Assembly: GCA_907163375.1 (NCBI GenBank)
Contig: CAJQUW010008712.1
Span: forward strand, 1-64,000
Direction: 5' to 3'
DNA: 64,000 bases
Origin: Prostheceraeus crozeri
Lineage: Eukaryota > Platyhelminthes > Polycladida > Euryleptidae
Shown: in pieces, positions 2,868-20,691 of the stretch
Position numbering within the stretch: the first letter of the stretch is position 1
How the letters are laid out: every line of letters begins with the position of its first letter
Notes under the pieces: generated by a model
The model's database searches: none
What the model was told of the DNA's origin: nothing
What the model saw: only the letters and a program-made list of their open reading frames with translations
Made by a program: the position numbers and the translations under genes

Positions 2868-3386
2868 TGTGATTATGATCATTTTCTTGCTCAAATCATG
2901 ACCGTTCCTGGCGTTCTTACAATTTATCTACTGCTTTGCACTCAGATAAACACTCAATTGTAGAGAACATCTGCTTCTCGCATTTATGAAGAAAAGGCAT
3001 TTCAGTGTAAAGAGCTGTGTCCTCCAACTCAAACATTTGAAAGGAAACAATGTATGAAAGAACAAACAGCTGCTACACCCACTTAGACATTTGTAAGACG
3101 TGGAATATATATCCAGCAAATCCTACTCCAGCTATAGTGCCGTGAAACAATACACAACAATAATAATCGATATGGCTATTTCAAACAATTGTGCTGAAGA
3201 CTTATTTAATTAAATAGTGTTTCTTGTCAGTGAAGGTTGTGTCAAAACGCTCTCGTCATATATTTCTCAAAATGAGACAAGATCAATTTGAAGATAGAAG
3301 AAAACAATCGTTGCCAGGGAGGATGAAAAAATTACGGGAGGAATTCAAGAGGAATATATTTTGAGAGTCATGAATTTACAGATACT

Positions 3387-3677
3387 TTGAGTGATTTCAT
3401 AGAGCCAAATGGTGGAGAGAATAATACAATTGTGAACTTACACAAATTCTTGTTGCATGAAAAAAGAAACAATTCACTCAGTGTTATGTGTAAAATTTTT
3501 ATCGGTAAGCACTATCTGCTCTCTGTTTGTGATAATGACAAGTCTTATTTTTATAGTCTCTTGAAGCAAAATCATATCAATTATTCACGCACCGAAGTTT
3601 CATTTGTTATGAAATTAGGTAAATTAGCAGACAAATTTCCTACGCTTTGTTGGGTGTCTGTTTCTCTTGTACTTTAA
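3387..3677 (+). CDS. Hypothetical small ORF in the Polinton left arm
   Basis: A 96-aa ORF with reasonably protein-like composition: mixed charged and hydrophobic segments and a C-terminal helix-like stretch around FVMKLGKLADKFPTL. The product is not recognised. It lacks the TAAAAATG start context shared by the other genes of the element, and the open frame begins upstream of the first start codon, so it may be a remnant of a larger broken gene. It may be real or chance. Confidence 0.3.
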   Translation: MSDFIEPNGGENNTIVNLHKFLLHEKRNNSLSVMCKIFIGKHYLLSVCDNDKSYFYSLLKQNHINYSRTEVSFVMKLGKLADKFPTLCWVSVSLVL

Positions 3678-4008
3678 AAGTCACGACCTAATGTTATCGG
3701 AAGATTGACTTCATTGTGTAAAGCAATTATGTATCATTCCAAATGATTCCATTCTTCTCCCAAACAATGGTGCGTCATTTAGCGTCAATATTGCGCTGAC
3801 ATATTCAATGGAATTTGGGTGTGTATCCCGCTTTGTTACTGCGACGGCCGCACGACACTTTATTTTCGTTTAGACCTATGCTATTTCATTTTAATTTTCT
3901 TAACAATGGTGCGCCATTCAGCTAAAATACTGCGCCATTCAACTAATCAAAAATCAACGCGTTAACATTAGACGCGCTGTGAAGAAAATTTATCATTCTT
4001 GAAACCCT

Positions 4009-4260
4009 CTGTTTTATATGCAATGTTATTTCCTGTTGCACATGTAAATACAATAGAGTGTTTCAACCAATGAAACCTTGTCAACCCGTGGACAGAAATC
4101 CCATTGTTTAGAAAACTTGTATCTGGCGGTTTTATATGCAATGCTATTTCCTGTTTTATATGCAATGCTATTTCCTGTTTTATATGCAATGTTATTTCCT
4201 CTTGCACATGTAAATACAATAGAGTGTTTCAACCAATGAAACCTTGTCCACCCGTGGACA
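4009..4260 (+). repeat. Duplicated 85-bp block plus three 24-bp tandem units
   Basis: An ~85-bp segment starting CTGTTTTATATGCAATG and ending near CCCGTGGACA occurs at 4009-4093 and again at 4175-4260 with few changes. Between them the 24-bp unit TTTTATATGCAATGCTATTT(CCTG) is repeated in tandem from about 4128, merging into the second copy. The pattern suggests unequal exchange or replication slippage. Confidence 0.85.
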
Positions 4261-4391
4261 AATTTACATGTATTTCAATGTATCCAAATTGAATGTATGC
4301 AAAGTGGATGTAACCGAATTGAAATATCCATGTGTTGTTTTTATTTTCTCATTTACGGGAATATAATAGAAACATTTTATCTTCTATAAAA

Positions 4392-4580
4392 ATGAGAAAC
4401 ATTAGAGACTTCCAAAAAATATACGGCAAACAAACTACGAATTTCGATTTAAATGAGATTGCTAAGCAATTGGGAATAAAGAATTTTCACATATTGATGA
4501 GTAATGAATTACTATTGATAAAAGATGTGCGAAACACTAACTCTACTAATACAATGCAACAATGTAACGTTTTAATTTAA
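4392..4580 (+). pseudogene. Partial duplicate of the protease N-terminal domain
   Basis: The start at 4392 is chosen because it has the TAAAAATG context typical of this element. The 62-aa product parallels the first ~47 residues of the protease at 4811: both share F-x-K-x-YG-x-QTT, NFDL, IA-x-x-LGIKNFH and LM-x-x-EL. After that the similarity stops and the ORF ends without the catalytic His, Asp or Cys. It is therefore a truncated, diverged tandem copy of the protease leader domain. Three 53-bp tandem repeats separate it from the full gene. A function as a free N-terminal domain cannot be excluded. Confidence 0.7.
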
Positions 4581-4608
4581 TCTAAATTAAATCATTTCAA
4601 AATCGAAT

Positions 4609-4766
4609 AAGTAGTAAGGAAAGACCTCATTAGAGAACAGTTTTAAATCAATACCCCCCCCAAGTAGTAAGGAAAGTCATCATTATGAAACAGTTTTAAT
4701 TAAATACCCCCCCAAGTAGTAAGGAAAGACATCATTAGAGAACAGTTTTAAATCAATACCCCCTCC
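4609..4766 (+). repeat. Tandem repeat, 3 x ~53 bp
   Basis: Units start at 4609, 4662 and 4714 with AAGTAGTAAGGAAAG and end in a run of seven to eight C. They sit between the truncated protease duplicate and the intact protease gene. Confidence 0.9.
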
Positions 4767-4810
4767 CTTCTGACTTCTAGGGGTCCCTTAAGAAATTTTT
4801 TTATTATAAA

Positions 4811-5302
4811 ATGAGCAACATAAATGAGTTTTTGAAATTATATGGAACACAAACGACAACGAATTTCGACCTAAAGAAAATCGCTAATCGATTAGGAATA
4901 AAGAATTTTCATGTTCTAATGAGAGTCGAATTACAATTCCTAAAAAATAAGCCAACAGGAACCTTTAGTTCCCGGAACAAAGTTCCATCAATAACTATAA
5001 ATTTTATAACGAATCTTCACACTTCAGACCAAAAAGGCGTACATTGGTCAGCAGGTATCTTTAGTAAAAACGGAGATAATTATTATTTTGACCGCCCGGA
5101 GGCTGAGAACTATTGGTTCGACTCATACGGGCTTCCACCTACGAATGAAGTAAGAGAAATACTTGGCAATGGAATTTATAATACATTTCAAATTCAAAAA
5201 CCGGGAACAGCTTATTGTGGTCAATTATGTTTATACGTTTTGTATAAATTACAAAAAGGAGTACCATTTCTTGATATTATGTTAGAATTGAACGAACCGT
5301 AG
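4811..5302 (+). CDS. PRO: Adenain-like (Ulp1-fold) maturation cysteine protease
   Basis: In Polintons and adenoviruses this protease cleaves capsid precursor proteins during virion maturation. The 163-aa product has an N-terminal lead domain (1-45) and then the adenain-type catalytic series: HWSAG (His about residue 80), FDSYG (Asp about 108), a Gln before the nucleophile and AYCGQLC (Cys about 138). The start at 4811 follows TTTTTTTATTATAAAATG, matching the start context of the other genes. The ORF stops inside a mini-palindrome (5294-5306): the stop TAG is the loop and stem of GAACC-GTA-GGTTC, so the original C-terminus may have been altered by that repeat. A second palindrome pair lies inside the coding sequence at about 4976-4996. 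Confidence 0.88.
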   Translation: MSNINEFLKLYGTQTTTNFDLKKIANRLGIKNFHVLMRVELQFLKNKPTGTFSSRNKVPSITINFITNLHTSDQKGVHWSAGIFSKNGDNYYFDRPEAENYWFDSYGLPPTNEVREILGNGIYNTFQIQKPGTAYCGQLCLYVLYKLQKGVPFLDIMLELNEP

Positions 5303-5338
5303 GTTCTATGGCTACGCCTAACAAGGGAATTTCATTCC
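5294..5338 (+). repeat. Triloop mini-palindromes at the protease 3' end
   Basis: Three adjacent hairpins: GAACC-GTA-GGTTC (5294-5306), GGC-TAC-GCC (5310-5318) and GGGAAT-TTC-ATTCCC (5324-5338). All have three-base loops and belong to a family dispersed through the Polinton. Confidence 0.85.
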
Positions 5339-5367
5339 CGAAACGTTAGTTCCAATAATAATGATAA

Positions 5368-6728
5368 TTAAAAATCAGTTCGTTGTAATTCATTTTGATA
5401 AAATCGGCCTCTGATATTTTCATCATCTAAATCTTTAATTTCATAACTAATCGGATAAGTTTGTTTTATTTTACAAATTTCAAATATCTCTTTCGTCCAG
5501 TATCCGACGAAGCCTTTTTCAAATTTATTCTTATATTTAAATATTCTAACTCTATCTCCAATTTTAAATTTCGGCTTAAGTTTCTGCAAATTCGGATTAC
5601 TCTCATTCAAATTATTATTCTCGAATATTTTTTTTCTTATCAAATCAGGGTCGTCAGAAGCATTCTTTGGGGTTTCTTCAATACCAGAATGAACTTTATT
5701 ATTGTACTCTTCTACAACTCCTGGTAATATCTTCAACCATTTCTGATTTCTTTGCTCAGTAAATTTCTTGAATAATTTATTTTTTAACGTCCGATTGAAT
5801 CTTTCTATCACTACGGCCTTCCCTGCATTTTCAGTTGAATAAACAGTTTCAAATAGTGGCTGAACGTTTCGGTTATAAAATTCCGACCCTTTATCAACAA
5901 ACAATTTTTTGGCTTTCTCTTACTTTCTTTAAAGATTTCTTCAAACGCATATTTAACTGATAGACCACTTTTATTTTTTAAAGGCTTTACCCAAGCGTAT
6001 CGTGTATATAAATCTATAACGGTCAATGCGTATTTGTAGTCCCTTTCATTCGGCATATGAATAAGATCAGCACTCCAAATATCATCTTTATTGAATACTT
6101 TTACTTTCAATAAATATTTCGGCTTTCTGTATTCCCTATGAATTTCGGAGGCATAGCGTCCTAGGTCATTCGACATTTCGGACGCATAGGTTCGAGCGTT
6201 GCTCTCAGACAGCTTTACTGTCGTTTCATTTAAACCCTGACCGAATAATATTTTAGCTTGTAAAGCTTTCTTAACAAACATTCTTTCAATTTTTTCTCTA
6301 AATGTTGGATTTTGAATACTATCTAATTCTTGAATCATCTTCTTATCAGCTGCATGTCGAGAACTTAGATCATGATTTCGATAAGCTAAATCATGTCTAT
6401 AAGCGGCGGCATCTACTCTATTTATTGGTTCTTCACCTGGTTTCGGATTATTATTCTCATCTAGTCTTATATCTAATCGAGTTCCTGGACCGGTATATGA
6501 ATGACCAGGAAGATGTTTTTCTTTCGAATATTTACTCCAAATAAATCCAGGAAAGTTTTCTAATGTTTTTTGTATGTCACCACCGTAGGTAGTAGCCAAA
6601 CTTTGTTTGTCGTCGTTACCTTCATAAATTTTACAATTTGAGTTTTCATTTTTGTTTAATAGATAATTCAATAAATCTAAATTAGAAATTTTTAATTTAA
6701 TTAAATTTTCGGAATTTGTAGAATTCAT
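5368..6728 (-). pseudogene. INT: PLA2 domain - retroviral-type integrase gene, frameshifted
   Basis: The N-terminal ORF (start 6728, ATCTTTAAAATG context) first encodes a parvovirus VP1-type phospholipase A2 domain: calcium loop YTGPGT (78-83), catalytic HDLAY (112-116) and a conserved Asp in HAADKK. In the same frame it continues into an integrase core (IWSADL, first catalytic Asp at 221). The frame is lost near 5880-5930. The second ORF (to 5368) carries VDKGSEFYN (second Asp), ERFNRT (catalytic Glu) and a C-terminal basic SH3/chromo-like DNA-binding region (KFKIGDRVRIFKYK). Polinton integrases insert the element; VP1-type PLA2 in parvoviruses breaches endosomal membrane. Having both in one frame is unusual and may be an old gene fusion or decay of two overlapping genes. 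Confidence 0.85.
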
Positions 6729-6759
6729 TTTAAAGATAAAATAAATGTTTTACCTAATA

Positions 6760-6815
6760 GAACCAAAGGTTCTGAGGCTTTAGCCGATCGGACCAAAGGT
6801 CCTGAGGTTATTACC
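6760..6815. repeat. Cluster of four triloop mini-palindromes
   Basis: GAACC-AAA-GGTTC (6760-6772), GGCTTTAGCC (6776-6785), GGACC-AAA-GGTCC (6790-6802) and GGTTATTACC (6806-6815) lie between the integrase start and the pX-like stop. The cluster is close to an inverted copy of the one at 9587-9644. Confidence 0.9.
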
Positions 6816-7296
6816 GAATCATACTAGGACTTAGATATATTCCAGAACCATCTTTAGTTTCTTTAATTTCAATTACATCATCAACATTGTGGAGAATATT
6901 TTTAAGAACTCGTTTTCCTTCATCAACTAATTTTAATTTACTAATAGAATTATCTACTATTCCTTCACCCCTAGCAACTTTCTCTAACTCTCTATTATGT
7001 CGTTTTTGTTCTTCTAATGCTGCCTTCTCTGATTTATTTTTATTTACTGCTTGGACAATACCAGCTGTCCCGCCTGCAACACTTCCTGCAGCTGCTATGC
7101 CACCTATTATTAGTGGAATTAATGGGAGAATCCCGCCATTCTTTTCTTCTTGTAATTGAATATTCTCTATCATTGGTTTACTTATGTAATACTTTTTTTT
7201 ATTAATCGTAATAGTTTTAGGGGTATTTTTGTCAACAATATTACGTAATTTTAATTCAACAGTTTTATTATTAATATTACTTTTCGCTTGCGACAT
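6811..7296 (-). CDS. pX-like hydrophobic virion protein
   Basis: The 161-aa product starts in a TTTTTTTATTAAAAATG context. Residues 1-50 are basic and polar. Residues 54-83 form a Gly/Ala/Ile-rich hydrophobic segment beginning GGILPLIPLIIGG, followed by a charged helix. The C-terminus is GSGIYLSPSMIR. The GG-x-LPLIPLI motif resembles adenovirus pX and its counterparts in Polintons, small core or membrane-active proteins cut by the maturation protease, and the GG at 54-55 fits such a cleavage site. It sits just downstream of the capsid gene on the same strand. Assignment is by motif and context only. Confidence 0.65.
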   Translation of the reverse strand: MSQAKSNINNKTVELKLRNIVDKNTPKTITINKKKYYISKPMIENIQLQEEKNGGILPLIPLIIGGIAAAGSVAGGTAGIVQAVNKNKSEKAALEEQKRHNRELEKVARGEGIVDNSISKLKLVDEGKRVLKNILHNVDDVIEIKETKDGSGIYLSPSMIR

Positions 7297-7453
7297 TTTT
7301 AATAAAAAAATTTTAAGTTACTAAAAAATTTTAAGTTACGAAAAATTTTTAAGATATCAAAATTTTAATCTATTCTAGTTATGAAAAATTTTAAGTTAAG
7401 AATTTTTAAGTTAACAAAAATTTTAATCTATTCTAGTTATGAAAAAATTTTAA
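7297..7453. repeat. AT-rich direct repeats between capsid and pX-like genes
   Basis: AAAATTTTAAGTTA is repeated several times and a ~65-bp block containing AATCTATTCTAGTTATG occurs twice. This is probably the promoter and leader region of the pX-like gene. Confidence 0.6.
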
Positions 7454-8788
7454 TTAACTTATCCTTACCATCTTTCCATTAAGAATTTCAATAGAATATT
7501 TTACATCTTCTAGCAATAAACCATAAGCCATCAATGAAGTTGTGGAATCTTTCTTTTCAATATTAATTGTTACATCACAACCATTTTTAATAATATCTTC
7601 AGATTGTGCACTTAAATCGAAACAGAAAACAGGATATAAATGTTTCCAATCTCCAGGAGTTAATTGTGGTTCAACTCCAAATTCTATACAATGATTTCGA
7701 TAAGAATCATATCCTTCCATAAATTGATTATTGGTATCATCGAATCTTAATGGATCAATTGGATATCGGGTTTGATTTAATGAAACTTGTAAACTTCGAA
7801 TTGTATTAATATGGAAGAGATTATTGTTCTTATCAAAACTTGGAGAATTATTTCTTTGAAAAGTTAGTAATAAATATCTTGGAGTATTCGCAGTTCTAGT
7901 AAAATGCCAGTTAAATCTTTGTTCGGAAAAAGTTACTGAACTAGCAGTACGCTTTAGAAAATTTACTGGAATTGGTTTGTTAGTATTTAATCTTTTTGCA
8001 ATAGCTGTTTCAACCTCTAAACTAGGAGTAATATGCTTAATCCACCATTCAAGTCTATCAATTTTTAAATATGCTTTTTTTCCAGTCTTACCAAAAAAGA
8101 TTAATTCATTATTTGCTGTACGATGAATTATTAATTTAAATTTTAATTGATATGATATTTTATCATAATCTAAATATCCGAATAATGGAGACAATGACCA
8201 ATTTACTGTCTGTTTACTTTTCTTGTTAAATTCACGTCTTTCTTTATATGCATCATTATTTGTTTTATTTAAATGTTTTGCAATATTTTCTACATCTTTC
8301 GCAATTCCTGCGGCATCTGTTCCAGCGTGAGTTAAATCATCAACAATTATACCATCATTAGTATCAGGAAACCAACCTTCGATTTCATACTTTTTATTAT
8401 TTTCACCAATTGTTATAAATCTAAGCATTGTATCAATTACACCTGGAGAATCACTTATTGTTTCTATATTTTGAGTTGCAACATCTAAACGCATTTGTGT
8501 AAATAATCTTGGAAAGAAATTATTCTCTAGTGCAATATTATCGGTTTCTGGTAATGGTGTTGTAAAATTGGCATCACTGTACAAAGAATATTCACAGTGT
8601 AAAAATGAATCAGGTAAATATAAATAACTCTGCTGATTATCAACTTCAAAAATTAAATCACCTCCAGTATTTACTCTACTGGAAGATCCGGGATTCATAG
8701 CAATTCTTATATAGTCATTCTTTTTTTGTTTGTAACTGACGAACGGAGGATCGTCTAATCTAAATTTATTTTCGATAAGCGAAGACAT
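7454..8788 (-). CDS. MCP: Major capsid protein (double jelly-roll hexon-like)
   Basis: The 444-aa intact ORF has a start context ATTTTTTATAAAAATG. Motifs shared with Polinton/adintovirus hexon-like capsid proteins can be seen: VNTGGDLIFEVDNQ near residue 40, ALENNFFPRLFTQ with a following ..IETISDSPGVIDTML block near 100-125, and in the second jelly roll QTRYPIDPLRF, FGVEPQLTPGDW and LYPVFCFDLSAQSED. Such proteins trimerise to build the icosahedral shell. The frame carries no lesion, in contrast to PolB and integrase. It lies in one co-oriented block with the pX-, pVI- and fibre-like genes. Confidence 0.87.
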   Translation of the reverse strand: MSSLIENKFRLDDPPFVSYKQKKNDYIRIAMNPGSSSRVNTGGDLIFEVDNQQSYLYLPDSFLHCEYSLYSDANFTTPLPETDNIALENNFFPRLFTQMRLDVATQNIETISDSPGVIDTMLRFITIGENNKKYEIEGWFPDTNDGIIVDDLTHAGTDAAGIAKDVENIAKHLNKTNNDAYKERREFNKKSKQTVNWSLSPLFGYLDYDKISYQLKFKLIIHRTANNELIFFGKTGKKAYLKIDRLEWWIKHITPSLEVETAIAKRLNTNKPIPVNFLKRTASSVTFSEQRFNWHFTRTANTPRYLLLTFQRNNSPSFDKNNNLFHINTIRSLQVSLNQTRYPIDPLRFDDTNNQFMEGYDSYRNHCIEFGVEPQLTPGDWKHLYPVFCFDLSAQSEDIIKNGCDVTINIEKKDSTTSLMAYGLLLEDVKYSIEILNGKMVRIS

Positions 8789-8951
8789 TTTTATAAAAAA
8801 TAATTTGACTTTTTGTTTTACTCACAGACAGAAAAAATTCTGCTAAAATAATTTTACTAAAATAATTTTAATAAAAAAATTTTACTAAAACAATTTTGCT
8901 AAAATATAATTTTAGAATTTTACTAAAAAAAATTTTACTAAAAACATAATT
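8789..8951. repeat. AT-rich direct repeats upstream of the capsid gene
   Basis: AATTTTACTAAAA and close variants are repeated about seven times. This is a likely promoter or spacer region. No ORF was seen. Confidence 0.55.
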
Positions 8952-9542
8952 TTAGAATTTTGCTAGACCAGCTCCGCTACAGCTTTGCTGGTTAGACCGA
9001 AGGTTGCTATTAATACCATTACCTCTTATTTCTTCAATTGAACGAACCGTAGGTTCAATTGAACGTTTTATGGCAACGCCTGATTTCTTCTTATGTTTAC
9101 TATCAGACGGAGCTCCGCTCCTCAAGGTTTCACCCCGTACAGCTATGTTAGCAATTTTATTTTTTGTTTCCTCTGAAAGTTTTTTTAAATTTTTTAGTTC
9201 TTCAGAATCATTCCTAAGTTTACGAATAGCTTCTAGTTGTTTTAATTCGTTTTGAGATTTAACAGCATTTGATATGGCACTAGCTGTACTACCTATAGCA
9301 GCTGCTCCTTTTGCAGCAGATGTAATCAAATCTTTATTATTTTTAATTAAGTTAACGATACTTCCAATACCAGAAAATATACCGGCTCCTTCTTTTTGAA
9401 CGGCACCTGCGGTGCCTAGGGACTTTTGTGTTCCGATTGTTTCTACATCGTTATAATGGTAAACAGATTTCATAGATGGTTCATGAGCAATTTTTTGATT
9501 TGAAGCAAAATGTTTAAGATTGTGTTTATAAATTATAGGCAT
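8952..9542 (-). CDS. Putative pVI-like minor virion protein
   Basis: The 196-aa product starts in a CCTAAAAAATG context. An amphipathic Ala/Gly/Ile region (about residues 52-95, starting GAGIFSGIGSIVNLI) is followed by a charged coiled-coil-like helix (95-130) and a basic tail containing KHKKKSG. This layout resembles adenovirus pVI and other membrane-lytic capsid cement proteins, but no sequence identity can be claimed. The gene has absorbed several mini-palindromes in frame: GGCACC-TGC-GGTGCC (9402-9416), GGAGC-TCC-GCTCC (9108-9120), GAACC-GTA-GGTTC (9044-9056) and GGC-AAC-GCC (9072-9080). The C-terminal codons also run through palindromic sequence (8968-9008). Confidence 0.55.
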   Translation of the reverse strand: MPIIYKHNLKHFASNQKIAHEPSMKSVYHYNDVETIGTQKSLGTAGAVQKEGAGIFSGIGSIVNLIKNNKDLITSAAKGAAAIGSTASAISNAVKSQNELKQLEAIRKLRNDSEELKNLKKLSEETKNKIANIAVRGETLRSGAPSDSKHKKKSGVAIKRSIEPTVRSIEEIRGNGINSNLRSNQQSCSGAGLAKF

Positions 9543-9586
9543 TTTTTAGGAATAAATTTGACTTTTGGGAAAAAATATTTACGATC

Positions 9587-9644
9587 GGCTAAAGCCTCGA
9601 GGAGCTTTGCTCCGATTGGTTAGTAACCTGAGGACCTTTGGTCC
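9587..9644. repeat. Cluster of four triloop mini-palindromes
   Basis: GGCTAAAGCC (9587-9596), GGAGC-TTT-GCTCC (9601-9613), GGTTAGTAACC (9618-9628) and GGACC-TTT-GGTCC (9632-9644) lie in the gap between the fibre-like gene stop and the pVI-like gene start. A transcription-termination or 3' end role is possible (inference). Confidence 0.9.
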
Positions 9645-9646
9645 GT

Positions 9647-10529
9647 TTAAGATTTACGTTTGTGAATGGACAACAACTTCGAGATAACTTTAATTGACTG
9701 TTGCACTTTATCTATTGCGACAAGCAGCGTGTGATGTACTTTAATTTCTTTTCTATTAACTTGCATTTTATCCTGATTCATCTTCAACGCCGTTTTAAGT
9801 GCATTTAACTTAATTTTAAGAACATCTAATTGTCTTTTAACAGAATCTAACTGTTCTTTATTTTCTTTAGAGTTTTCTTGTAAATTTTTCTTTAATTCAT
9901 TTTCTAAATTGATTTTAAGATTTTTCATTTTATCAACTTTTTCATTAAGTGAGTTTACTTCATTTATTATTCTATTCATCTTTTTCATTTGTTGAGTTAT
10001 TTTAGAACTTAATTCATCAACACTTTTTGGAATGTAGTTTGTAACTGCTTTAAATTTTTTTAATTCTTTCAGGAAGTTTTTCTATTTCATCTTCTAATTG
10101 TTCTTTTAACATTTTTATCTGATGTTTATTTTTAATGACAGCAGATTTTAAATTTAAAGAAAGTAATATTAAAATTTTTGATTGTTCTGAAATCTTTTTA
10201 AAAAGTTTTGCTATATCTGCTTCTAGCTCTCTATCCTTTTTATCAAGTTTTAATAATTTTTCGTTTAATGATTTGTCATTAAGTTTTAGCAACTTTAATT
10301 CATTCATCAGTGGAACCATAACATCGTTTATATATTTTTCTTTTAAGTCATTGATTTGTGTATCAACATATTGTTTATTTGTTAACTCTGTATTTTGTTG
10401 CGGAAGAATAGAAAGATGCAATGGACCAGATAAAACGTCTCCAGTTTTCATGATATAATTTTCTATCTCTATTTCTAATTCACGATTATTCGGGATATAT
10501 GCACCTCCACCAACATTTGGTAACATCAT
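9647..10529 (-). pseudogene. Fibre-like coiled-coil protein, one frameshift
   Basis: The upstream ORF (10529 to 10050, 159 aa; start context ATTGTTAAAAAATG) begins with a short Gly-rich leader. It then has MKTGDVLSGPLHLS and LTNKQYVDTQI, which match the repeating module of phage and viral trimeric fibres (tGd-x-sGpL ... n-K-YVD). A long heptad coiled coil follows. A second ORF (9988 to 9647, 113 aa) continues the coiled coil in another frame, and the open frame reaches back to a seven-A run near 10055, so a single indel in that homopolymer explains the break. The likely role is an attachment fibre or spike; this rests on the module and the coiled coil. A sequencing error is a real alternative to a true lesion. 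Confidence 0.6.
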
Positions 10530-10604
10530 TTTTTAACAATAAAAAAATAAAATTTTTTCTAATAAAAATAAAAAAATAAAATTTTTTCTAATAAAAATAA
10601 AAAA

Positions 10605-11899
10605 ATGGATAAAGCAAATTTAAAAAAATTATATTCGCCCGCATCATCCTGTTCTTCTTATTCGACGAGATCAACGGGATTTGAAAATAAATGTTTGATA
10701 ATAATAATAATAATAATCCATGTATAGATGTTAATATTTTATTTCAATTACAAGCCGAAATATTTAGAGAACAGACTAAAGGTTTACCTTCTATAGAAAC
10801 TAATTATTGTTTATTTCCAGGTGATCCATTTATTAAATTTATGGATATTGTAAGCAAATATAATGATGTAGCTTATGTAGAATTAAATAAAGAAAATATG
10901 GTTATAATAGGACATAATAATGTTTATGGATTCATTAGAGCAGTTTTGCCGATTAGTAATACTGATTGGATAGAAACTAAAATTATTAATTATATTAATA
11001 TTAAAGAATTAGTTAAAAAATTAAAATCTTTTTCCAAAGAAAAAATAAGATTATTTGTTGACGATCAAAACCAATATAATATTCATATCGAGAGTAAAAA
11101 ACATAGTGAAGAATTATTATGTCAAGTTTATTACAGAGATACAATTTATAAACAAGAAACATTAGAAATGCCGCAAAGATATGATGATGATACGTATATA
11201 GGATTATATTCCAACTTAAATATTAATTTATTAAAATCTTATATAAATGGTTTAGCTCAACAAGAGAAAATTTATATGTGGACTACACCTTATACTATTA
11301 ACAATGACCATAATCATATTCATAATCAACGAACTGAAGGTTCTAGGGCTTTGCCCGATCTTAAAGAATCTTATGATAATAATGATGATTCTGTAACATC
11401 TGAAAAAGGTGTAAATGGTAAAAAAGATTATAAAAATATTAGTAATTATAAAAATTTATCTAAATTTCATTTTCTTACAATTGAAAATAATAATGATGGC
11501 ATAGTTTAAGATACAGTTAGACAACTATGTGTCGGGTCTACAAAATTTAAATTAGGATTTACATCTAATCAATTTAAAATTTTATCATCTTTAACAAAAA
11601 CTAAAAGTGATTCAGATTATGGTGGTGTTATTAAATTTTCCAAAAGAGAACAAAGACCAATATTTTTCTCTATTATATTATTATCAGATAAAAGATGTAA
11701 TTTAGAGTTAGATATTCCAATAAGAGAATGGTATCCTATCATGGAAGGGCATCCTATACCAAAAAGTGTAATTTATGATGTTGAAGAAACAATTTATGAT
11801 GATGATGAAGAATCAATTGATGATGATGATGAAGAATCAATAGTTAGTGAAAATAAATTTAAATTATCTTTTGATAAAACGTTATATGATAAAACTTAA
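10605..11899 (+). pseudogene. Unknown Polinton protein with acidic tail, interrupted
   Basis: An ATG at 10605 follows the TAATAAAAATAAAAAAATG context and opens a short Ser-rich leader. Its frame runs into an (ATA)n run at about 10695-10715, where the main ORF (10691-11509, 272 aa) takes over in a different frame. The main ORF ends at TAA 11507-11509, yet the same frame stays open to 11897 and ends in Asp/Glu-rich blocks. The gene therefore shows two breaks. In-frame palindromes at 11331-11356 encode TEGSRALPD. No domain was recognised; position upstream of PolB, acidic tail and size would fit a replication accessory factor such as a clamp-like protein, but that is a guess. Confidence 0.5.
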
Positions 11900-12056
11900 T
11901 ATGATAAAACTTAATGTGATAAAGAAAATAAAATAACTTAAGAATGTGAAATATATAATAATATAAAATAACTCTCAAGTCCTTGATATTAGAATGTTTA
12001 TATCTAAAATTAAAACACAAATTTTTTCTTAAATTTTCCCTAAAAAAATAAAAAAA

Positions 12057-15000
12057 ATGGAAAATACCAAGTTTTATTGTGTCTTATGTAAAAAAAAGTT
12101 GCAAACAAAAAGAAGTTATCAATCTCATTTAAATAGTAAATTGCATTTACAAAATGTAGAACGAGTTGATGAAGGAAATATATTAAAATTAAATAGTTAT
12201 AAAAACTATCTAGAAACATTGCCTACTGATATAAAAGTTAAAAAAATGTTTGATGATTATTCACATTCGGAATATAAAAATGTTTTTAATAGTGAAGATG
12301 AGACCATACAAACCGAAGGTTCTAGGACTTCGCCCGTACCAGGTGGAAGATATTTATTTAGAGATACTGATGAATTTAACGAAATAGATGAATTTGATGA
12401 AGCCGTAACAGATATAAAATATTTATTTAATCAGTCTGTTCGCGGGACATCAAAGATGTCTTCCAGGGCTTCGCCCGTTGAACATAATGAAACCGATGAA
12501 ACTTTTTATAATGTATTAAAAAACTTTTTCAAAATATTTAAGAAATCTTTCAAATGTTATATGAATGTAGAAGTACTTTATACAAAAAATGGACCTGATG
12601 GAATTCCTGAAGAAATGATACAAGGACATTTTACAAATTCACAAGAAATTCATAATGTAAATGATATACAACCCATATTTGAATCGATGATACTTAAATT
12701 AGAAAATTGAATAATTGAAGCCCAGTTACGTGAATCTGGTTGGAGATTTGTTAAAATACTATCTAAGAAAATAGTAATTGATAAATATAAAAATAATACT
12801 GGTGGTAGTTATGTTCCTTTACCTTTCAGTTCACCACAAATAATCAACATAAAAAATGAAGATGATTATTGTTTTCTGTGGAGTATTATAGCACATTTAC
12901 ATCCTGCAGAATATCATAAAGAAAGACTAAGTCATTATAATAAAGAAGAATACATAAATGAATTTGATCTTTCTGATGGCTTGGATGAATTTCCATATGA
13001 TTATAATAGGTTAAAAAAGTTTCATAAAAAGAATAAAAATTTAATAGAAGTAAATGTTTTTGAATTACATGTGAATTATGTTTCTATTGGTAAAATTACT
13101 CCACTTTACTCAGATTCAAAAAAATTTTATTTGAATAATAAAAATTTATGTCAATCAGAAATAGTATATAATGATAGGGGAAATTACATGCATCATAATA
13201 TTTTTTACCAAGGAAATATAATATGTACTGAAAAATTTGAAATTATAAAAACATTATCACCAATAATGATTAGTCATAATAATTATAAAGGACGTAATTA
13301 TAATTATGATTATGATTCCGATTATTTATCTTTATTTTTAGAATATCAACAAAAATTACAAAATTTAAATAAAAGTTTACAAAAATGTAAAACAGATTAT
13401 CAACAACAAACAAAATTATTAGTACAAGAATATGGCCATAAATATGAAAATAAGATAGAAACGATTCAAAAATTAAATGAAGACAATAAAGAATTAAATA
13501 AAGACAATAAAGAATTAAATGAATGTTTAAAAAAATGTCTACAACAATATAAAGAACAATATGATAAAGAATATAGTTATCAGTTACAAATATTAAATCA
13601 AAATTATCATCAAAATACATTTAATATTACAAAGACAAATTAATGAAACACATGAAATATATAAAGATAAATTTGAAAAATTAAAACAAACAAAACAACC
13701 AGCACAAGCGAATATATTATATTATCAGGGTCATTTTATATTGTGTAAAGATGTTTCTATATTTACAAAAACTTCAGATAATACAAATTTTCCTTGTCTT
13801 CAATGTATGACAAGTTTTAGAACTAAAGAAGAAATGAATAGACATTTGGAGAATTGTCAACAAAATGAAGCAGTCAGAAACACATTTCCAAAAGATGATT
13901 ATTTAGAATATAATAAATGGTATTTTAAAAATAAAGTACCCTTTACTATTTATTGTGATTTTGAAGCTTATAATGTTAATATGACACAAAATCAAACGGA
14001 AAGTTCCAGGGCCTCACCCGATTCTAAAAATGATAATTCTGAAAATGGTACGGGCCAAGCCCTAGAACCTTCGGTTTGTAATTATGAAAAAAGTGCATCT
14101 GAACAAAGTAAAGAAAAATATTTATTTGAACAAAAACCATTATGTTGGGGAATGTATATTCATTCAAATTATCCTGAATTATTTAAATCAGAATATTATC
14201 AATACTATGGTGAAGATAGTTCAGAAATGTTTACAAAGAAAGTAGAAGAATTACAAGGTCGCTTTTCACAATTGCTTGAAACAAATATACCGATGATGCC
14301 ATTAACAGAAAAAGAAAAATTAAATTTTATTAATGAAACAAAATGTTATTACTGTGGAAGAGAATTTACAATAAATTATAAAAATGGCAAAGGTAGATAT
14401 ATTGATAAGCGAAGCGGCGGCTCTGCCGATAAAGTAAAAGATCATGATAATCTAAATGGATTATATAGAGGTGCAGCACATAATTCTTGTAATCTTAATG
14501 CTAATAAATTTAAATATAACTTTGTTCCTTTATATTTCTACAATGGTTCTAAATATGATTTCCATCTAGTAATGAAAGATTTATTTTCATCTGAAAAATT
14601 ACAACGACAACAAATAAATGTACTATGTAAAACAGAAGAAGAATATTTTTCAATGCAATTAGGTTGTATTAGAATTTTAGATGCATTTAGATTTTTTACT
14701 CCTTATTCATTAGATGTTATGGGAAAAACTTTGAAATCTGAACAATGTAAAATATTAAATAAATATAATTAAAAACCTTTAAAAGGCATATTTCCGTATG
14801 AATATTTAACCTGTGGTTCACAGTCGAAGACTGATATAACTGGAGATAAAACCTGTGGTTCACAGTCGAAGACTGATTTTAATTCTGTGAATAAAATTAT
14901 GGAAGAAAAACAACTTCCTCCAATAAATAAATTTAAATCAACATTAAAACAATCACAATTATCTGACGAAGACTATGCAGAAGCTGAAAAAAATTGGAGA

Positions 15001-16669
15001 AAGTTAAATTGTAAAACAATGTATGATTATACAATGAAATATCTTCAGATAGATGTATTAATACTAGCTGATCTTTTCGAAAACTTTCGTGACATGTGTT
15101 TAGAATATTACGGAATAGATCCATGTTATTGTTATTCTACACCAGGTTTAACATGGTTAGCAGGATTAAAACATACAAATGTTAAACTTAAACATTATAA
15201 AGAAAATACATATGATAAATTATTATTTTTTGAATCTGGAATTAGAGGTGGAGTTTCATCAGTTTTAGGTAATAGATATGTTAAATGTTATAATAAGAAA
15301 GTAAATCCTGATGATTATGGAATAATGAAACCTTTATCTCCAGAAGAAAGTGATCAGTTTATAAAATTGTTTAATCAAAATATAGAAGGACTTATATCAA
15401 ATGAAGATAGTCAAGCAGCAGTTGATGAAATCATGAGAGAAAACTATTTGTTATATTATGATTTTAATAGCTTATATTCTTCTTGCATGATACAAGAATT
15501 ACCAACAGGTGAAATGTCATGGTGTAATATTCGCCCGTTCTAGATTATCAAAAAACATATGATGGAAATTATAATCATGGTTATATATATGAAGTTGATT
15601 TAGTATACCCTGATGAAATAAAAGATAAAACAAAATATTTTCCTTTCTGTCCCGAAAACAAAATTCCCAATATAGAAGATTTTTCAGATTATCAAAAATC
15701 TATAATTCCTAAGAAATACAGACCAACAAAAAAACTTATGTTAACACAAAGCAATAAAGGAAAGTATGTTGTTGAAGGAAGAATGCTAGATTGGTATTTA
15801 GATCATGGAATGATTCTCACCAAAATACATCGAAAACTATTTTATCAAAAATCTAGGTGGTTAAAAATTATATAGAGTTCAATATTGAAAAACGTAAAAT
15901 AGCTAAAAGAAATAAAGATGATTTTGGAAACGTGTTCTTCAAATTAATGAATAATGCATTTTATGGTAAGACTTTAGAAGATGTGCGTAATAGACAAAAT
16001 ATTGAAATAGTTTATGATAAAGATAGGTTTCAAAATTTAACAAGGAAACCTACATATAAAAGAACTACTAGATTTAGTGATGAACTATGTGCTGTACATT
16101 TACGTCGAATTAGCGTAAAACATGATAAGTTTAATTTCATTGGTTTCACTATATTAGAATTAGCTAAACTATTTATGTATAGATTTATATATGATTATTT
16201 AGCACCTGCTTATGGCAAAAACTATAAATTACACTTTACAGATACCGATTCTGTTTTCTTAGAATTAACAATACCGTATAATTCTTCACTTGATGAAGAA
16301 ATTAATAAAATAAAAGATATCATTCATCCTTCTGATTTATGTAAAGTAAAAGATGAATTAGAAGGAAATGAAGATTTCATAACAGAAGCTATATTTTTAA
16401 AATCTAAATGTTACTGTTATGATACAACTAATAATATTAAAACACATAAAACATTAAAAGGAATTTCAAAGGCATCAGTGGCTAATCAAATAACATTTCA
16501 AGATTATAAAAATGTATTATTTAATAATGAAATAAAAACAGCATGTAATTATAGACTTAATTCAAAAAAACATAACATGTATTTAAAAGAAGAACATAAA
16601 TTAGCATTAGATCCATTTGATGATAAAAGAAAAATTTTACCTGATGGAATAACTACTGAACCTTTTTAA
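12057..16669 (+). pseudogene. polB: Protein-primed family B DNA polymerase, decayed
   Basis: The product replicates the element from its ends. The gene opens with a C2H2 zinc finger (CVLCKKKL...HLNSKLH, residues 5-30), followed by the N-terminal region typical of Polinton PolB (NEDDYCFLWSI near 12860). The exonuclease motif YCDFEAYN is near 13955, Exo III-type YLQIDVLILA near 15045, polymerase motif A DFNSLYSS near 15463, motif B KLMNNAFYGKT near 15943, and motif C FTDTDSVF near 16240. Lesions: in-frame TGA 12708-12710; frameshift near 13627; in-frame TAA 14770-14772; frameshift and stop near 15541; frameshift near 15863. Different stop codons are used, so code reassignment is not the explanation. 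Mini-palindromes are inserted in frame at several points. Confidence 0.92.
14811..14875 (+). repeat. Duplicated paired mini-palindrome inside PolB
   Basis: The pair CTGTG-GTT-CACAG and CAGTC-GAA-GACTG, overlapping by three bases, occurs at 14811-14833 and 14853-14875. Both copies are in the PolB frame and encode TCGSQSKTD twice, just after the conserved GIFPYEYL segment. Confidence 0.92.
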
Positions 16670-16749
16670 TTTTCTAATTTCTAAGATAGTCAAATTTAAT
16701 ATATACATAAAATAAAAAAATATTATAACACTATATTTGTATATTTTTA

Positions 16750-17517
16750 TCACTCCGCGAAAATATTTTCTATAACTCTTTCATGAATTTTTTTATCAAT
16801 ATTAATTGTAATGAAGCCATAATCTTTTGACCAAGCATTGTTACACGATTGTTTAAATTCATCTTTATTTCTTACACATAAATCTCTTAACAAATCACTT
16901 AAGTTTCTTGCATTTATTTCAAATAGTATAAATATATTTGCATTCTTTCTAATAACACTTCCGTCTAATGAATACATACTTTGTGTTAAATAAAAAACAC
17001 TACAGTTATTATGTCTACCTCTTGTGAAATAATTTCTCTGAACTGACTGATTTCTATCATTAACACAATCATCAAAAATTACACAATGTTTCATTGTTTT
17101 ATCTAGTTTACTAGGATCTTGCATATTACCACTATCATCTATTAATTGTATTTTTATATGCTTATTTTTATTGGATTCAACTAATTGTTTATTTTTTGCT
17201 GCTTCTTCACACCACGAACTTATTTCTTCTTCATCTTCAGATTTTTCATATTCTTTGAATAATGAAGCAATTGCTGTTTTTTTAAGATTATTTTCAAATC
17301 CATATTTTAAAAATTGATAGACGGGTTGTTCTGCTGTTGTTGTATAAATTATAAGATTGTTATAATCCAAAAAATTTGGAGTCGTTAAAATTTTAAATAA
17401 TAGATGTGTTTTTCCACAACCTGATCTTCCACAAATAACTGACAAAACTTTATTAGATAAATTTGGATGATGATTAAATTTAAGTTTTTTTTTGTTTAAT
17501 GGGGGTACTTCACTCAT
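16750..17517 (-). CDS. ATP: DNA-packaging ATPase (FtsK/HerA type)
   Basis: The 255-aa ORF is intact and starts in TTTTTTATTAAAAAATG. The Walker A motif GRSGCGKT is near residues 29-36, Walker B CVIFDDC near 145, and the downstream FYLTQS fits the sensor motif of A32-like packaging ATPases. In Polintons and related viruses this enzyme pumps genomic DNA into preformed capsids. It is convergent with PolB (81 bp between stops) and leads a block of four minus-strand genes. Length is normal for the family. Confidence 0.9.
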   Translation of the reverse strand: MSEVPPLNKKKLKFNHHPNLSNKVLSVICGRSGCGKTHLLFKILTTPNFLDYNNLIIYTTTAEQPVYQFLKYGFENNLKKTAIASLFKEYEKSEDEEEISSWCEEAAKNKQLVESNKNKHIKIQLIDDSGNMQDPSKLDKTMKHCVIFDDCVNDRNQSVQRNYFTRGRHNNCSVFYLTQSMYSLDGSVIRKNANIFILFEINARNLSDLLRDLCVRNKDEFKQSCNNAWSKDYGFITINIDKKIHERVIENIFAE

Positions 17518-17596
17518 TTTTTAATAAAAAATTTATTTTTATTTTATTTTTATTTTTAAAGAAGAATAAGAAAATTAAACTTCTCTAGCTTCGCGT

Positions 17597-17613
17597 GGGA
17601 GTTTATACCTCCC
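17597..17613. repeat. Mini-palindrome downstream of the penton-like gene
   Basis: GGGAG and CTCCC flank a seven-base loop, directly before the stop of the minus-strand penton-like gene at 17603. The adjacent AGCTTCGC is related to the triloop family. It is more degenerate than the others. Confidence 0.55.
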
Positions 17614-18391
17614 GAACCAAAAGATCTATCATAATCTCTTCACCTCCAAAATTTATTTCTTGTCCTTTCTCATCAGTGATTCTAATGTTAATGTTGTTAA
17701 TAGTTTTTCTTGTAATAGGGAAATATATTAATGTTTGTGGAAATACATTTAATCTATAACCAATGGGTACAGTAAAAGCTGGAAAACTGAATATTAAATT
17801 TGACAATTTACCATTTATATATCCTCCTTCAATAATGTCACAATGTACAACAATTGAATTTATTTCAGTTATTTTTGGAATCTTCTCACCTAAATGATAA
17901 CCTTGACTATAGGTTTGTTTATTAAATCCTAATAGCTTTGACAATGATCTATCATGATTAAAATCAACTTGATGATTTTCGTCTAAAGTAAGAGAAAATT
18001 TATTAACTGCCGGTTCAACTGCAAAATGTAATTGTTTCTTATCTTTAAATGATATACCTAAATGTCTCTTAATTTCATTTGATATTGATTCAACTTCGTA
18101 AGAACCAGGAAGAAAAGTTAGTATTTTCCATGTTTTGCCTTTATCAGTAGAATATCTAAATTGATCATTCACATCTTTGATAACGTTTTGAATAGTGTTA
18201 AATGTAGAGAAACTAGTCAATGCAATTTGATAATTTTTATTTTGTTCCAAATGTAGAATGGGTTCTAAATTACAAGTGTGTGATGAAGTAGTTGTTATAA
18301 TTTTTAACGTCGTACTAAATTTTGATGAACCCAAAATCTCTGTTAGATTTTCTAAATGATTATTAATTTTGTCTAAATCTGCTGAACACAT
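17603..18391 (-). CDS. mCP: Penton-like minor capsid protein (single jelly-roll)
   Basis: The 262-aa ORF is intact, with start context TTTTAACTAAAAAATG. It carries the pattern common in animal Polinton minor capsid proteins: LEQNKNYQIALTSFSTFNTI (residues 44-63), then FRYSTDKGKTWK and PGSYEVESISNEI. In these elements the protein fills the fivefold vertices of the shell. It sits between the ATPase and an unknown ORF on the same strand, a usual place for it. Confidence 0.82.
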   Translation of the reverse strand: MCSADLDKINNHLENLTEILGSSKFSTTLKIITTTSSHTCNLEPILHLEQNKNYQIALTSFSTFNTIQNVIKDVNDQFRYSTDKGKTWKILTFLPGSYEVESISNEIKRHLGISFKDKKQLHFAVEPAVNKFSLTLDENHQVDFNHDRSLSKLLGFNKQTYSQGYHLGEKIPKITEINSIVVHCDIIEGGYINGKLSNLIFSFPAFTVPIGYRLNVFPQTLIYFPITRKTINNINIRITDEKGQEINFGGEEIMIDLLVREV

Positions 18392-18473
18392 TTTTTAGTT
18401 AAAATTTTAAATAAATATTTTTTTCTGAAATATTTTTTTAATAAAAAATTAAAAACAACAACATATTTCAGCT

Positions 18474-18502
18474 ACGGGCGAATCCCTAAAACATTCGGTT
18501 CG
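18474..18502 (-). repeat. Degenerate paired mini-palindrome at the 3' end of the next gene
   Basis: Read on the minus strand this is a worn copy of the paired unit (GAACCGAAGGTTC then AGGGCTTCGCCC), beginning GAACCGAATG. It overlaps the stop region of the 274-aa gene. Confidence 0.6.
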
Positions 18503-19310
18503 TTATACTTTTATAATCCTCTTCATTTAGAATCTTCTTTTCTAACAGTCTTTTCAATATAGCATGAATTTCATTGAAACTAGAATTATGTCCTTCTTTT
18601 ATTGGAGATATTAAAATATTTAATCTATCTAGTAATTCTTGTGGATCATCTGGTAAAAATATGGTTGTTTCTGTTTTCTGTTTTTCAGATAAACCTTTCC
18701 CTACTTTAACTCCCGTTGATAATAAATTTTCTAATTGTTTATAACGTCTAAGAGATTTTACTGCACTAACTCTGTCTAACATAGCTTTATATTTTATGAG
18801 ATCTTCTACAGCATAATTATTTAAATCTGCTCCTCTTAAAATATTAACAAAATTTCTATCTAAATTAAAAGGAGATTTATCTGGTGAAAAAATTATACCT
18901 CGAAAAGGTTGTGGAAATATTTCTTTTTGTCCGAGATAAAATCTAGGTATTGTTTTTCCATCTATAAATGAAATAGAATGTTCAAATTGCATAGATTTTG
19001 GTAATTTCTTATTAATGTTTGATTCTAGTAATCCATAGTCATCTAATATAGTTTTGTGCTCTGGATCTGTTATATCAATTTGTTTATCATTATTTCTACT
19101 TTCTTTTTCAAGAGTTTTAAATGGTTTCATAGTTTTTTCAAAATCAATTTTTACTTGCTCGGTTTGCTGCATTTTTTCAAACATATCAGATTGAATACCA
19201 GCTTTTATCATTCTATGTTGAAGATGATTTTCTTTCATAATATTTCTTTGTTTTATTAACTCTTCTAATTGTTTTATTCTTTTAAAATTATCAGCTCTAA
19301 TTTTATCCAT
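18486..19310 (-). CDS. Unknown Polinton protein, coiled-coil N-terminus
   Basis: The ORF is open from 19376, but I place the start at 19310 because ATTTTAAAAATG there matches the start context of the other genes, giving 274 aa. The first ~70 residues form a charged coiled coil (KRIKQLEELIKQR). The middle contains GKTIPRFYLGQKEIFPQPF and a short FSPDKSPFNLDRNFV segment, and the C-terminus is helical. No known domain was recognised. The frame is intact and lies within the ATPase-penton gene block, so a virion or assembly role is possible. Confidence 0.6.
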   Translation of the reverse strand: MDKIRADNFKRIKQLEELIKQRNIMKENHLQHRMIKAGIQSDMFEKMQQTEQVKIDFEKTMKPFKTLEKESRNNDKQIDITDPEHKTILDDYGLLESNINKKLPKSMQFEHSISFIDGKTIPRFYLGQKEIFPQPFRGIIFSPDKSPFNLDRNFVNILRGADLNNYAVEDLIKYKAMLDRVSAVKSLRRYKQLENLLSTGVKVGKGLSEKQKTETTIFLPDDPQELLDRLNILISPIKEGHNSSFNEIHAILKRLLEKKILNEEDYKSITNRMF

Positions 19311-19431
19311 TTTTAAAATATAATATTTGAATTTTGTGGTAACATTGGAATACAGCAAAAACATTTTACTGAACAAATTATTTTTTTATTGCTTTGTTGT
19401 TTGACATCTTTTCGTTTAAAGTTTTCTCGTT

Positions 19432-20178
19432 TTAAGTTTTGTTTAATAAAGTTTTGTTTAATAAAGTTTTGCTTAAATTTTCGCTTAAAGTTTTTAGCTC
19501 TTCTAAAAAAATTTTATCATTTTCTTCATTAGAAATTTTACCACCAGTAAAAGTTTTACCATCACTAGAAATTTTGCCACCCTGTTTATTCTTATCATCA
19601 ACTTTTTCGGTCTTTAAATGAAATGATATTTGATTTACTTCATTAGCTATTTGATCAAATTTTTCAATCTCATCTAACGTAATAACATTATCATCACATA
19701 CTCTTTGAAAGTAGTAATGTAGTTTATCATAGACTTCTTTAATATGTAAATGCTTAGTTTTTAATGATTTTCGTTTCTTAGTTATTAAAGATTTATCTAA
19801 CATTGTAACAAGTGAAGATGCAAAAACACCCGTACCTGTTAAAGCTGTAGCAACTACTGGAATTACTAAAACACCTGAAGATATAACAATTGTTAAAGCA
19901 CCTAAACTTATTGTTAAGAATATGCCAATTCCTTGTGTTACATTCTTAACTTTAGTCCATCTCTTTCTTAATTTTTTATAATGCTCTAATCTTAATAATA
20001 ATTGAGATTCCTTATCTTTCATATACCTAACTCTATCTTTGTGTTTTTCTTTATTCATTTTTTCAATGTTAATCTTTTCAATGTCCATTAAAGTAGAACT
20101 ACGTTCATATGATAACGAAGGATATATTCTTGCGGTTTCTTCCATTTCTGAAGTTCCTTCCACTTTTGTTTCTTCCAT
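19432..20178 (-). CDS. Unknown Polinton protein with a hydrophobic membrane segment
   Basis: The start at 20178 is preferred over the upstream codon at 20202 because of its TCTTTAAAAATG context (248 aa). After a charged coiled-coil N-terminus (~1-75) comes a long hydrophobic stretch starting IGIFLTISLGALTIVISSGV and continuing through VVATALTGTGVFASS (about residues 83-125), enough for one or two membrane passes. A basic region and a helical Lys/Asp-rich tail follow. The last codons repeat the peptide LLNKT twice. It is not recognised. It is the outermost gene next to the right TIR. Confidence 0.6.
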   Translation of the reverse strand: MEETKVEGTSEMEETARIYPSLSYERSSTLMDIEKINIEKMNKEKHKDRVRYMKDKESQLLLRLEHYKKLRKRWTKVKNVTQGIGIFLTISLGALTIVISSGVLVIPVVATALTGTGVFASSLVTMLDKSLITKKRKSLKTKHLHIKEVYDKLHYYFQRVCDDNVITLDEIEKFDQIANEVNQISFHLKTEKVDDKNKQGGKISSDGKTFTGGKISNEENDKIFLEELKTLSENLSKTLLNKTLLNKT

Positions 20179-20243
20179 TTTTAAAGAAATATTATTAGTC
20201 ACATGATATATTTTAAAAACCTGAAAGATGGATAAAATTCATG

Positions 20244-20685: not shown

Positions 20686-20691
20686 GAGGAT
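20686..20691. repeat. Polinton target site duplication, right copy (GAGGAT)
   Basis: Identical to 2417-2422 and in frame with the interrupted exon. Confidence 0.93.

Follow-up and report, generated by a model that had tools for sequence, protein, structure and literature searches.

The stretch of DNA analysed here (the window) comprises 64,000 nucleotides (nt) of the polyclad flatworm Prostheceraeus crozeri (contig CAJQUW010008712.1, positions 1 to 64,000) and carries a Polinton, a virus-like transposon, in which very short hairpins with three-base loops are dispersed. An initial annotation had described these hairpins over 4976..18502, a range that proved too narrow, as the element occupies 2423..20685 (no strand assigned) according to its long terminal inverted repeats, its Pfam matches and the 6-bp target repeat GAGGAT which flanks it at 2417-2422 and 20686-20691.

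The carrier Polinton and its triloop hairpins

Pfam identified a PLA2-like domain, a double jelly-roll (DJR) capsid protein, a piece of PolB and an A32-type ATPase among the genes of the element, and the rve integrase core, in the same frame as the PLA2-like domain, was matched at 27.2 bits, below the Pfam cut-off of 32.6. With terminal inverted repeats, an rve integrase (sub-threshold), PolB, a DJR capsid protein, a packaging ATPase and a target repeat of about 6 bp, the carrier is a Polinton. The putative protease-like frame at 4781-5302 and the further putative PolB pieces are our own assignments, made from the sequence. Because PolB is divided among several frames and the integrase between two, this copy of the Polinton looks broken. 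No relatives of its proteins were found in IMG/VR or GTDB contigs, and neither Rfam at gathering scores nor ARAGORN found anything on the window; an AlphaFold model of the PolB piece built on 5 sequences reached a mean predicted local distance difference test score (pLDDT) of 41 and was not used. The gene-poor left part holds tandem repeats of 24/59 nt (3989-4213) and 53 nt (4609-4766), and upstream of the protease-like gene its start is present a second time in diverged form (4389-4533 versus 4856-4955, family D7). AT-rich tandem repeats which differ in length among copies lie between genes (8836-8935, 10534-10600), and a long interspersed nuclear element (LINE)-like element with reverse transcriptase and endonuclease frames (22211-24943) lies just beyond the right side.

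The hairpins were counted against shuffles preserving local dinucleotide content. Between 4976 and 20200 there were 12 hairpins with a 5-bp stem, at least 3 GC and a loop of 3, against 0.7 expected, while other loop sizes from 0 to 9 gave 0 to 6 hairpins against 0.5-0.8 expected (loops 5 and 9 gave 3 each). Loop size 8 was likewise in excess with 6 hairpins, perhaps through pairing between adjacent hairpins. The host part at 27001-64000 held 6 such stem-5 triloop hairpins, where 5.5 are expected. When stems of at least 4 bp with at least 3 GC were admitted, the whole Polinton held 22 triloop hairpins against 2.1 expected, and the 45.7 kb of host DNA in the window 22 against 19.3, which is no excess. 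The earlier claim that triloop hairpins are dispersed in the Polinton and not in the host thus survives the composition-preserving shuffle which had been proposed as its check; moreover, all 11 hairpin sequences quoted in its support (12 places) lie where they had been placed, although the one at 11331, GAACT-GAA-GGTTC, closes with a T-G pair.

The loops fell largely into two classes. GNA/TNC or AAA/TTT loops were found in 17 of the 22 Polinton hairpins (0.4 expected), divided into 9 GNA/TNC (0.25 expected) and 8 AAA/TTT (0.15), with 5 others (1.7), whereas in the host DNA the same classes numbered 1 (2.5 expected), 1 (1.4) and 20 (15.4). Over all loci there were 39 distinct strong triloop hairpins, read on either strand, with 13 GNA and 12 ANA loops; in the 22 found in at least two loci these numbered 9 and 8. 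A scan with a double-hairpin grammar gave a weaker contrast than the triloop test (8 against 0.67 at a score of at least 21; 28 against 15.5 at a score of at least 15), and DNA folding z-scores were about -0.4 to -2.5 for single units and -3.2 and -3.3 for two-unit pieces. GNA triloops are described as forming DNA mini-hairpins of exceptional stability in which G and A make a sheared pair (PMC6479982, citing Yoshizawa 1997), and mini-hairpins of this type are treated in general terms in PMC10527192. As the loops are mainly GNA or AAA, the loop rule suggests that the working form of these hairpins would be single-stranded DNA.

The usual unit consists of two GC-rich hairpins in tandem, 28 nt long or near it and often with C first and G last, in which a 5-bp stem with a 3-nt loop is followed by a linker of 2-4 nt and a stem of 3-4 bp with a loop of 3-4 nt. 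Its commonest form is near CGAACC-GAA-GGTTC-TA-GGGC-TTC-GCCCG; units occur in both orientations, and some are flanked as AT-CG..CG-AT. Read on one strand, canonical units have GNA or AAA in the first loop and TNC or TTT in the second (9108 and 14051 are among the exceptions), and each strand therefore bears one hairpin of the stable class. The pairs forming the recurring unit recognized in the initial annotation are real, but its exact form, GAACCGAAGGTTC, is absent from the window, which holds variants of it, and the exact pairs are found in other Polinton copies. Stems vary (GAACC, GGACC, GGAGC, GCACC, CAGTC, GGAAC, ACAGC and others) as had been noted; however, they are not always paired, as mismatches are present in the units at 5090, 12309, 13993 and 18475. 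Across 20 chosen sequences, double changes filled 24 cells of the first stem where shuffles gave 5.5, and the score was 0.658 compared with 0.173; these rows had been picked as hairpins, so that pairing is partly built in, and one of them was shifted by the aligner. A single PolB site gives firmer evidence of kept pairing, since AACC-TGT-GGTT of the window is matched there by AGCC-TGC-GGCT in the loci L056, L058 and L059, a compensated change.

Filled and empty sites

We compared other loci with the window, and some of them with each other, and obtained 19 sites at which filled and empty alleles both occur (4956, 5090, 5322, 6039, 6754, 8976, 9400, 9584, 12308, 12406, 12436, 13514, 14046, 14410, 14804, 14845, 20196, 20312 and 20456). 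In clean pairs the hairpin arms are missing from the empty site. The insert was exactly 30 nt long at 14 of the 19 sites and 33, 31, 36, 39 and 24 nt at the other five, and in the best pair a direct repeat of 2-4 bp was noticed at 13 of them. With a chance of 0.139 per site for a repeat of at least 2 bp, 13 of 19 has a probability of 9e-8; if 6188 is also counted, 13 of 20 has a probability of 2e-7. The choice of the best pair favours the former figure, and in window pairs alone 9 of 15 sites had such a repeat (probability 4.5e-5). The 19 sites were picked by hand. The starting list comprised 24 hairpin indels with a flank identity of at least 34 of 40, of which 17 had a repeat of at least 2 bp, 11 were of 30 nt and 19 were multiples of three. 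Nine of these were left out, namely second rows of the same site (4954, 14040), rows of arrays or tandems (6759, 6772, 9582, 9616, 9642, 12324) and the 21-nt duplication at 9033; to the remaining 15 we added 5090 (decayed, hence listed as lacking a hairpin), 12308, 9584 and 12406. Poor flanks or size excluded 6188 versus L070 (36 nt, no repeat), 9040/9041 (25 and 43 nt), 8967 (48 nt) and 11329 versus L004, and the subtype replacements at 12320 and 13992 were also excluded.

The protein alignments agreed in that relatives 64-93% identical lack many of the encoded peptides in PolB, orf197 and the zinc-finger protein, which together with the filled and empty DNA copies bears out the earlier proposal that these peptides are insertions. 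For PolB, the aligned relative P0001, with 86% identity, is without the inserts at 14051 and 14410 and has a different subtype at 13993, and P0003 lacks the stretch which holds the first two inserts. Among 14 homologues of orf197, the peptides of the 9108 and 9400 inserts are each present in three, with other extra residues at the 9400 site in P0008 and P0020; the 8976 insert is found in P0008 only, the duplicated part at 9033 in none and the rest of that unit in two. Both inserts of the zinc-finger protein are missing in P0006 (64% identical).

Within the window, the protease-like gene contains a 33-nt double-hairpin insert (4956..4988, plus strand; absent in L037 and L070, with a short repeat CA or CCA) and a decayed 30-nt unit (5090..5119, plus; absent in L039, L052 and L053, repeat GAC). 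The stop codon of its frame is given by a GTA-loop double hairpin (5293..5320, plus) which is present in L001, L037, L039, L041, L049 and L052 and for which no clean empty site was found among the copies compared; in L070, L072 and L073, another stretch with GCGAAGC replaces this GTA-type unit at the end of the gene, at window position 5309. A 31-nt hairpin insert without a direct repeat follows between convergent genes (5322..5352, plus; absent in L037 and L049). The PLA2/integrase frame carries the double hairpin GACAG..CTGTC / GAGC-AAC-GCTC (6193..6223, minus; present in L001 and L046, absent, with poor flanks, in L070), and two tandem units with compensated stem differences lie between genes (6759..6816, plus), one of them missing in L001, L072, L073 and L074.

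Four units lie in orf197. These are a 30-nt insert near its end (8976..9005, minus) with a clean empty site in L068, the repeat GCTA and support from protein alignment A2; a GTA-subtype unit rearranged by a 21-nt tandem duplication (9033..9083, minus), as judged from the protein alignment and from L050 and L063-L068; the unit GGAGC-TCC-GCTCC / GGT-TTC-ACC (9108..9136, plus); and a 36-nt insert with GGCACC-TGC-GGTGCC (9400..9435, plus), absent in L050 and having a direct repeat of 1 bp. At 9036, AATTGAAC was considered as a target repeat and ruled out, since L050 shows the whole unit together with a tandem duplication of 21 nt. Between orf197 and orf144 lies a two-unit array (9584..9646, minus); of the 30 copies of this gap, 12 were empty and 18 held one to several units, with alternating stems. 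Further along, orf272 holds a canonical unit with the peptide TEGSRALP (11330..11357, plus; absent in the diverged copy L004), and the zinc-finger gene holds one with the peptide TEGSRTSP (12309..12336, plus; repeat TAC), which is absent in L004, replaced by another subtype in L061 and in tandem with it in L058, as well as the 37-nt subtype GACATC-AAA-GATGTC / GGGC-TTC-GCCC (12441..12477, plus; 39 nt with the repeat), absent in L038, L058 and L059.

PolB contains a decayed unit with AT on either side (13993..14020, plus), at which L057 and, by its peptide, P0001 have another subtype; a unit in reverse orientation (14051..14078, minus; absent in P0001 and L061); a 24-nt hairpin insert (14410..14433, plus; absent in L058 and P0001), with the repeat AAG in the L061/L058 pair; and a 30-nt insert AACC-TGT-GGTT / CAGTC-GAA-GACTG (14804..14833, plus; absent in L057 and L061) followed by a second of the same subtype (14845..14874, plus; repeat GAT, absent in L056). 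The repeat at 14821/14863 is no plain tandem duplication and consists of two separate insertions 12 nt apart, and the same filled and empty comparisons ruled out a tandem duplication at 14811/14853. A decayed unit at the end of orf299 (18475..18502, minus), intact in L051, gives the stop codon of that gene.

The same comparisons bear on whether anything has moved at all. Hairpins could form in place by template switching of the polymerase (quasi-palindrome formation), an explanation which accords with stems that vary yet remain paired, with the compensated change at one site and with arrays that grow and shrink, and for coding palindromes in nematomorph mitochondrial DNA (mtDNA) the mechanisms put forward include template switching (PMC6649704). 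But the empty sites of clean pairs are without hairpin arms, single inserts are mostly of 30 nt, and the identical unit sequence stands at unrelated genes in both orientations. Identical units at unrelated empty sites largely refute an origin by template switching, which we regard as very unlikely, although it may still repair stems after insertion.

Reading frames are respected by most of the inserts. In a count made without hand choice (hairpin indels of 18-60 nt), the length was divisible by three in all 15 well-flanked indels inside reading frames and in 5 of the 11 lying elsewhere; dropping the flank filter gave 18 of 22 and 10 of 20, respectively. Single units located outside genes mostly measure 30 nt, and the units of arrays there often 31 nt. 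The difference between 15/15 and 5/11, together with the 31-nt arrays outside genes, implies that frame neutrality is at least partly due to selection, aided by the length of the unit. Two units, at 5293 and 18475, supply stop codons, and those at 5293, 6759, 9584 and 18475 lie at or directly after stop codons, as would be expected of hairpins for transcription termination or RNA 3' processing such as those of Mimivirus and Marseilleviridae, a hairpin rule known for giant viruses (PMC5413956). However, 15 of the 20 window units listed above lie inside reading frames, the 9584 array is missing in 12 of 30 copies, and units are present in the terminal repeats of other copies; such a role for the family is therefore most improbable.

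Number, confinement in the sample and probable movement of the units

We searched the assembly of the window (G000; 2.05 Gb, 14,165 contigs) for GAACCNNNGGTTC and found it at 12,188 places, compared with 557 for the reversed pattern. Among the matches listed, 48 of 50 had GNA or TNC loops, and all four middle bases occur. All 24 loci examined (L001-L004 and L035-L054), which together hold 28 of the 50 listed matches, were Polinton DNA. For orf197 a first look gave 9,472 candidates in the assembly, and the 150 which were scored were 92-100% identical, most with open frames; this suggests that the very many young Polinton copies stem from a recent burst. Exact or near-exact unit patterns had no matches in IMG/VR and GTDB, one exact 18-nt pattern of the approximately 28-nt unit having none in GTDB contigs. 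That the units are an ordinary family of host transposons resembling miniature inverted-repeat transposable elements (MITEs), moved by a host transposase and present in Polintons by chance, would fit with a discrete unit and short direct repeats. Against this stand the 24 of 24 loci in Polintons and the lack of excess in the host DNA of the window, and terminal repeats and binding sites would scarcely fit into 28 nt, so we give such an origin hardly any credence.

Several copies differ from the window in ways that speak for mobility. The GACATC subtype, located in the zinc-finger gene in the window, occurs in PolB of L057 and also, to judge from the peptide, of P0001; at a site where L059 and L061 each have a single subtype, L058 has two in tandem; L046 has an in-frame 30-nt unit within the integrase core where the window is empty; and two terminal-repeat sites that lack a unit in the window have one in other copies. 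Arrays between genes often have a period of 31 nt. Presence and absence at the same site, both orientations, a recurring length, short repeats at most sites and confinement to Polintons in the sample are thus shown. In our view these hairpins very likely constitute a family of selfish mobile elements, very short and non-autonomous, which live in Polintons.

A number of observations weigh against this interpretation. The repeat was 0-1 bp at 6 of the 19 sites (5322, 6754, 9400, 9584, 12406, 14046), at 12436 and 14410 it was lacking in the window pair though 3 bp long in another pair, and its width is ambiguous between 2 and 3 bp. Repeats of at least 2 bp were also present in 34 of 41 hairpin-free indels, mostly as low-complexity or tandem duplications in AT-rich DNA, and 6 of the 41 are of 30 nt, one of them being the decayed unit at 5090. 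A direct repeat alone is therefore no proof of transposition, and the rest of the case is carried by the unrelated sequence, the recurring length and the shared unit. Four of the 22 unfiltered in-frame hairpin indels are not multiples of three, all of them in poorly aligned stretches. Some of the empty sites could in part be losses. The 24 loci were the first contigs listed, which is a non-random sample, and L048 is located at the margin of a terminal-repeat match of 327 bp. No moving enzyme, fresh insertion or single-stranded form was observed.

If the units are mobile elements of this kind, they may move during the protein-primed, strand-displacing replication of the Polinton, when the unit would be single-stranded and could fold on its GNA or AAA triloops. 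Insertion at a break staggered by 2-3 bp, later filled in, would leave the short direct repeat, and template switching and slippage might subsequently repair or expand the unit. Insertion into genes would be tolerated, since 30 nt correspond to ten codons and several frames of the unit are open, and selection would keep only length-neutral inserts there. The integrase of the Polinton is unlikely to be the mover, since the target repeat of the Polinton itself is 6 bp. Carried further, these steps would make the unit a hyperparasite of about 28 nt on a virus-like transposon, among the smallest of mobile DNAs, moving only during the replication of its carrier as a single-stranded double hairpin with GNA triloops and mostly frame-neutral at about 30 nt with its repeat. 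We put this forward tentatively and rate it lower because the period of arrays outside genes is 31 nt; if true, such a hyperparasite would alter viral proteins through added loops of ten residues and through new stop codons.

Beyond the initial annotation, this analysis adds the length of often 30 nt with a target repeat, the evidence for mobility, the rule on loops and the count across the genome. Short mobile hairpins are known in mitochondria and bacteria, yet their mode of movement is unsettled, and here many young copies of one transposon family allow insertion sites, target repeats, subtypes, decay and arrays to be read in one genome. The units also offer virus-like elements a route to short protein insertions and new stop codons, and the loop rule makes the single-stranded working form testable.

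Comparison with known hairpin families

In the literature consulted, mostly open-access and largely as titles and abstracts, we found no such hairpin family in Polintons, adintoviruses or Mavericks; in the parts available, a survey of Polinton-like viruses mentions 'stem-loop' once, for matches to the histone 3' untranslated region (PMC12220804), and palindromes are also discussed for Fusarium mtDNA (PMC7218506). The hairpins of giant-virus transcription differ from the units here, most of which lie in frames and others in terminal repeats, and which are not concentrated between genes.

Streptomyces linear replicons have protein-primed ends. Their telomere palindromes resemble the units here in having GNA-capped hairpins (in many telomeres) on a linear replicon (PMC7205883), but they are terminal and functional in end replication, and are not dispersed mobile units. 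The initial annotation had likened the family to the palindromic elements of Rickettsia, which is apt for behaviour; in size, double-hairpin shape and short direct repeats the family comes nearer to the double-hairpin elements of mitochondria and the yeast GC clusters. The Rickettsia elements are about 100-150 nt long, and we know of no double triloop shape among them. They are bacterial and longer, and the likeness is one of behaviour. Palindromic inserts are tolerated within protein genes in Rickettsia (PMC6649704), and in-frame palindromic inserts missing from homologues are what we found in the protein genes here.

The Volvox short palindromic repeats are hairpin repeats in both orientations, found in nuclear DNA too (PMC2670323), as are the units here; unlike these, the nuclear copies in Volvox were judged inert, and the mtDNA copies lie between genes and in introns, according to the same source. 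It could be argued that our unit derives from, and is perhaps still fed by, hairpin elements of the host mtDNA, because short hairpin elements are reported in fungal and sponge mtDNA (PMC2800124) and in algal organelles, and TTTA loops are shared by the Volvox organelle palindromes and the second hairpins here (PMC2670323). The inertness ascribed to the nuclear Volvox copies speaks against such a source, which we think unlikely.

The double-hairpin elements of Allomyces mitochondria and the repetitive hairpin-forming elements of sponge mtDNA are short, often double, sporadic in close relatives, sometimes in genes, and merge in tandem (PMC2800124), and we likewise found two adjacent GC-rich hairpins and sporadic presence at the same site among close relatives. 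On the other hand, the 24 of 24 loci were Polinton DNA and not mtDNA (the host mtDNA itself was not searched); the Allomyces elements, as told in PMC2800124, lack flanking duplications, unlike the units here; and in the sponge elements stems are conserved and loops vary (PMC2800124), whereas here stems vary and loops are mainly GNA or AAA. Yeast mitochondrial GC clusters are short GC-rich palindromes with AG or ACT direct repeats, merging and polymorphism among strains (PMC4478555), and a comparable short direct repeat of at least 2 bp was found at 13 of our 19 hand-chosen insertion sites and was lacking at 6. GC42 is 42 nt long and lies mostly in intergenic mtDNA, while our units are often of 28 + 2 nt and often inside Polinton genes. 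These likenesses suggest that the family works like the mitochondrial double-hairpin elements and the yeast GC clusters, and we do not file it as a member of either.

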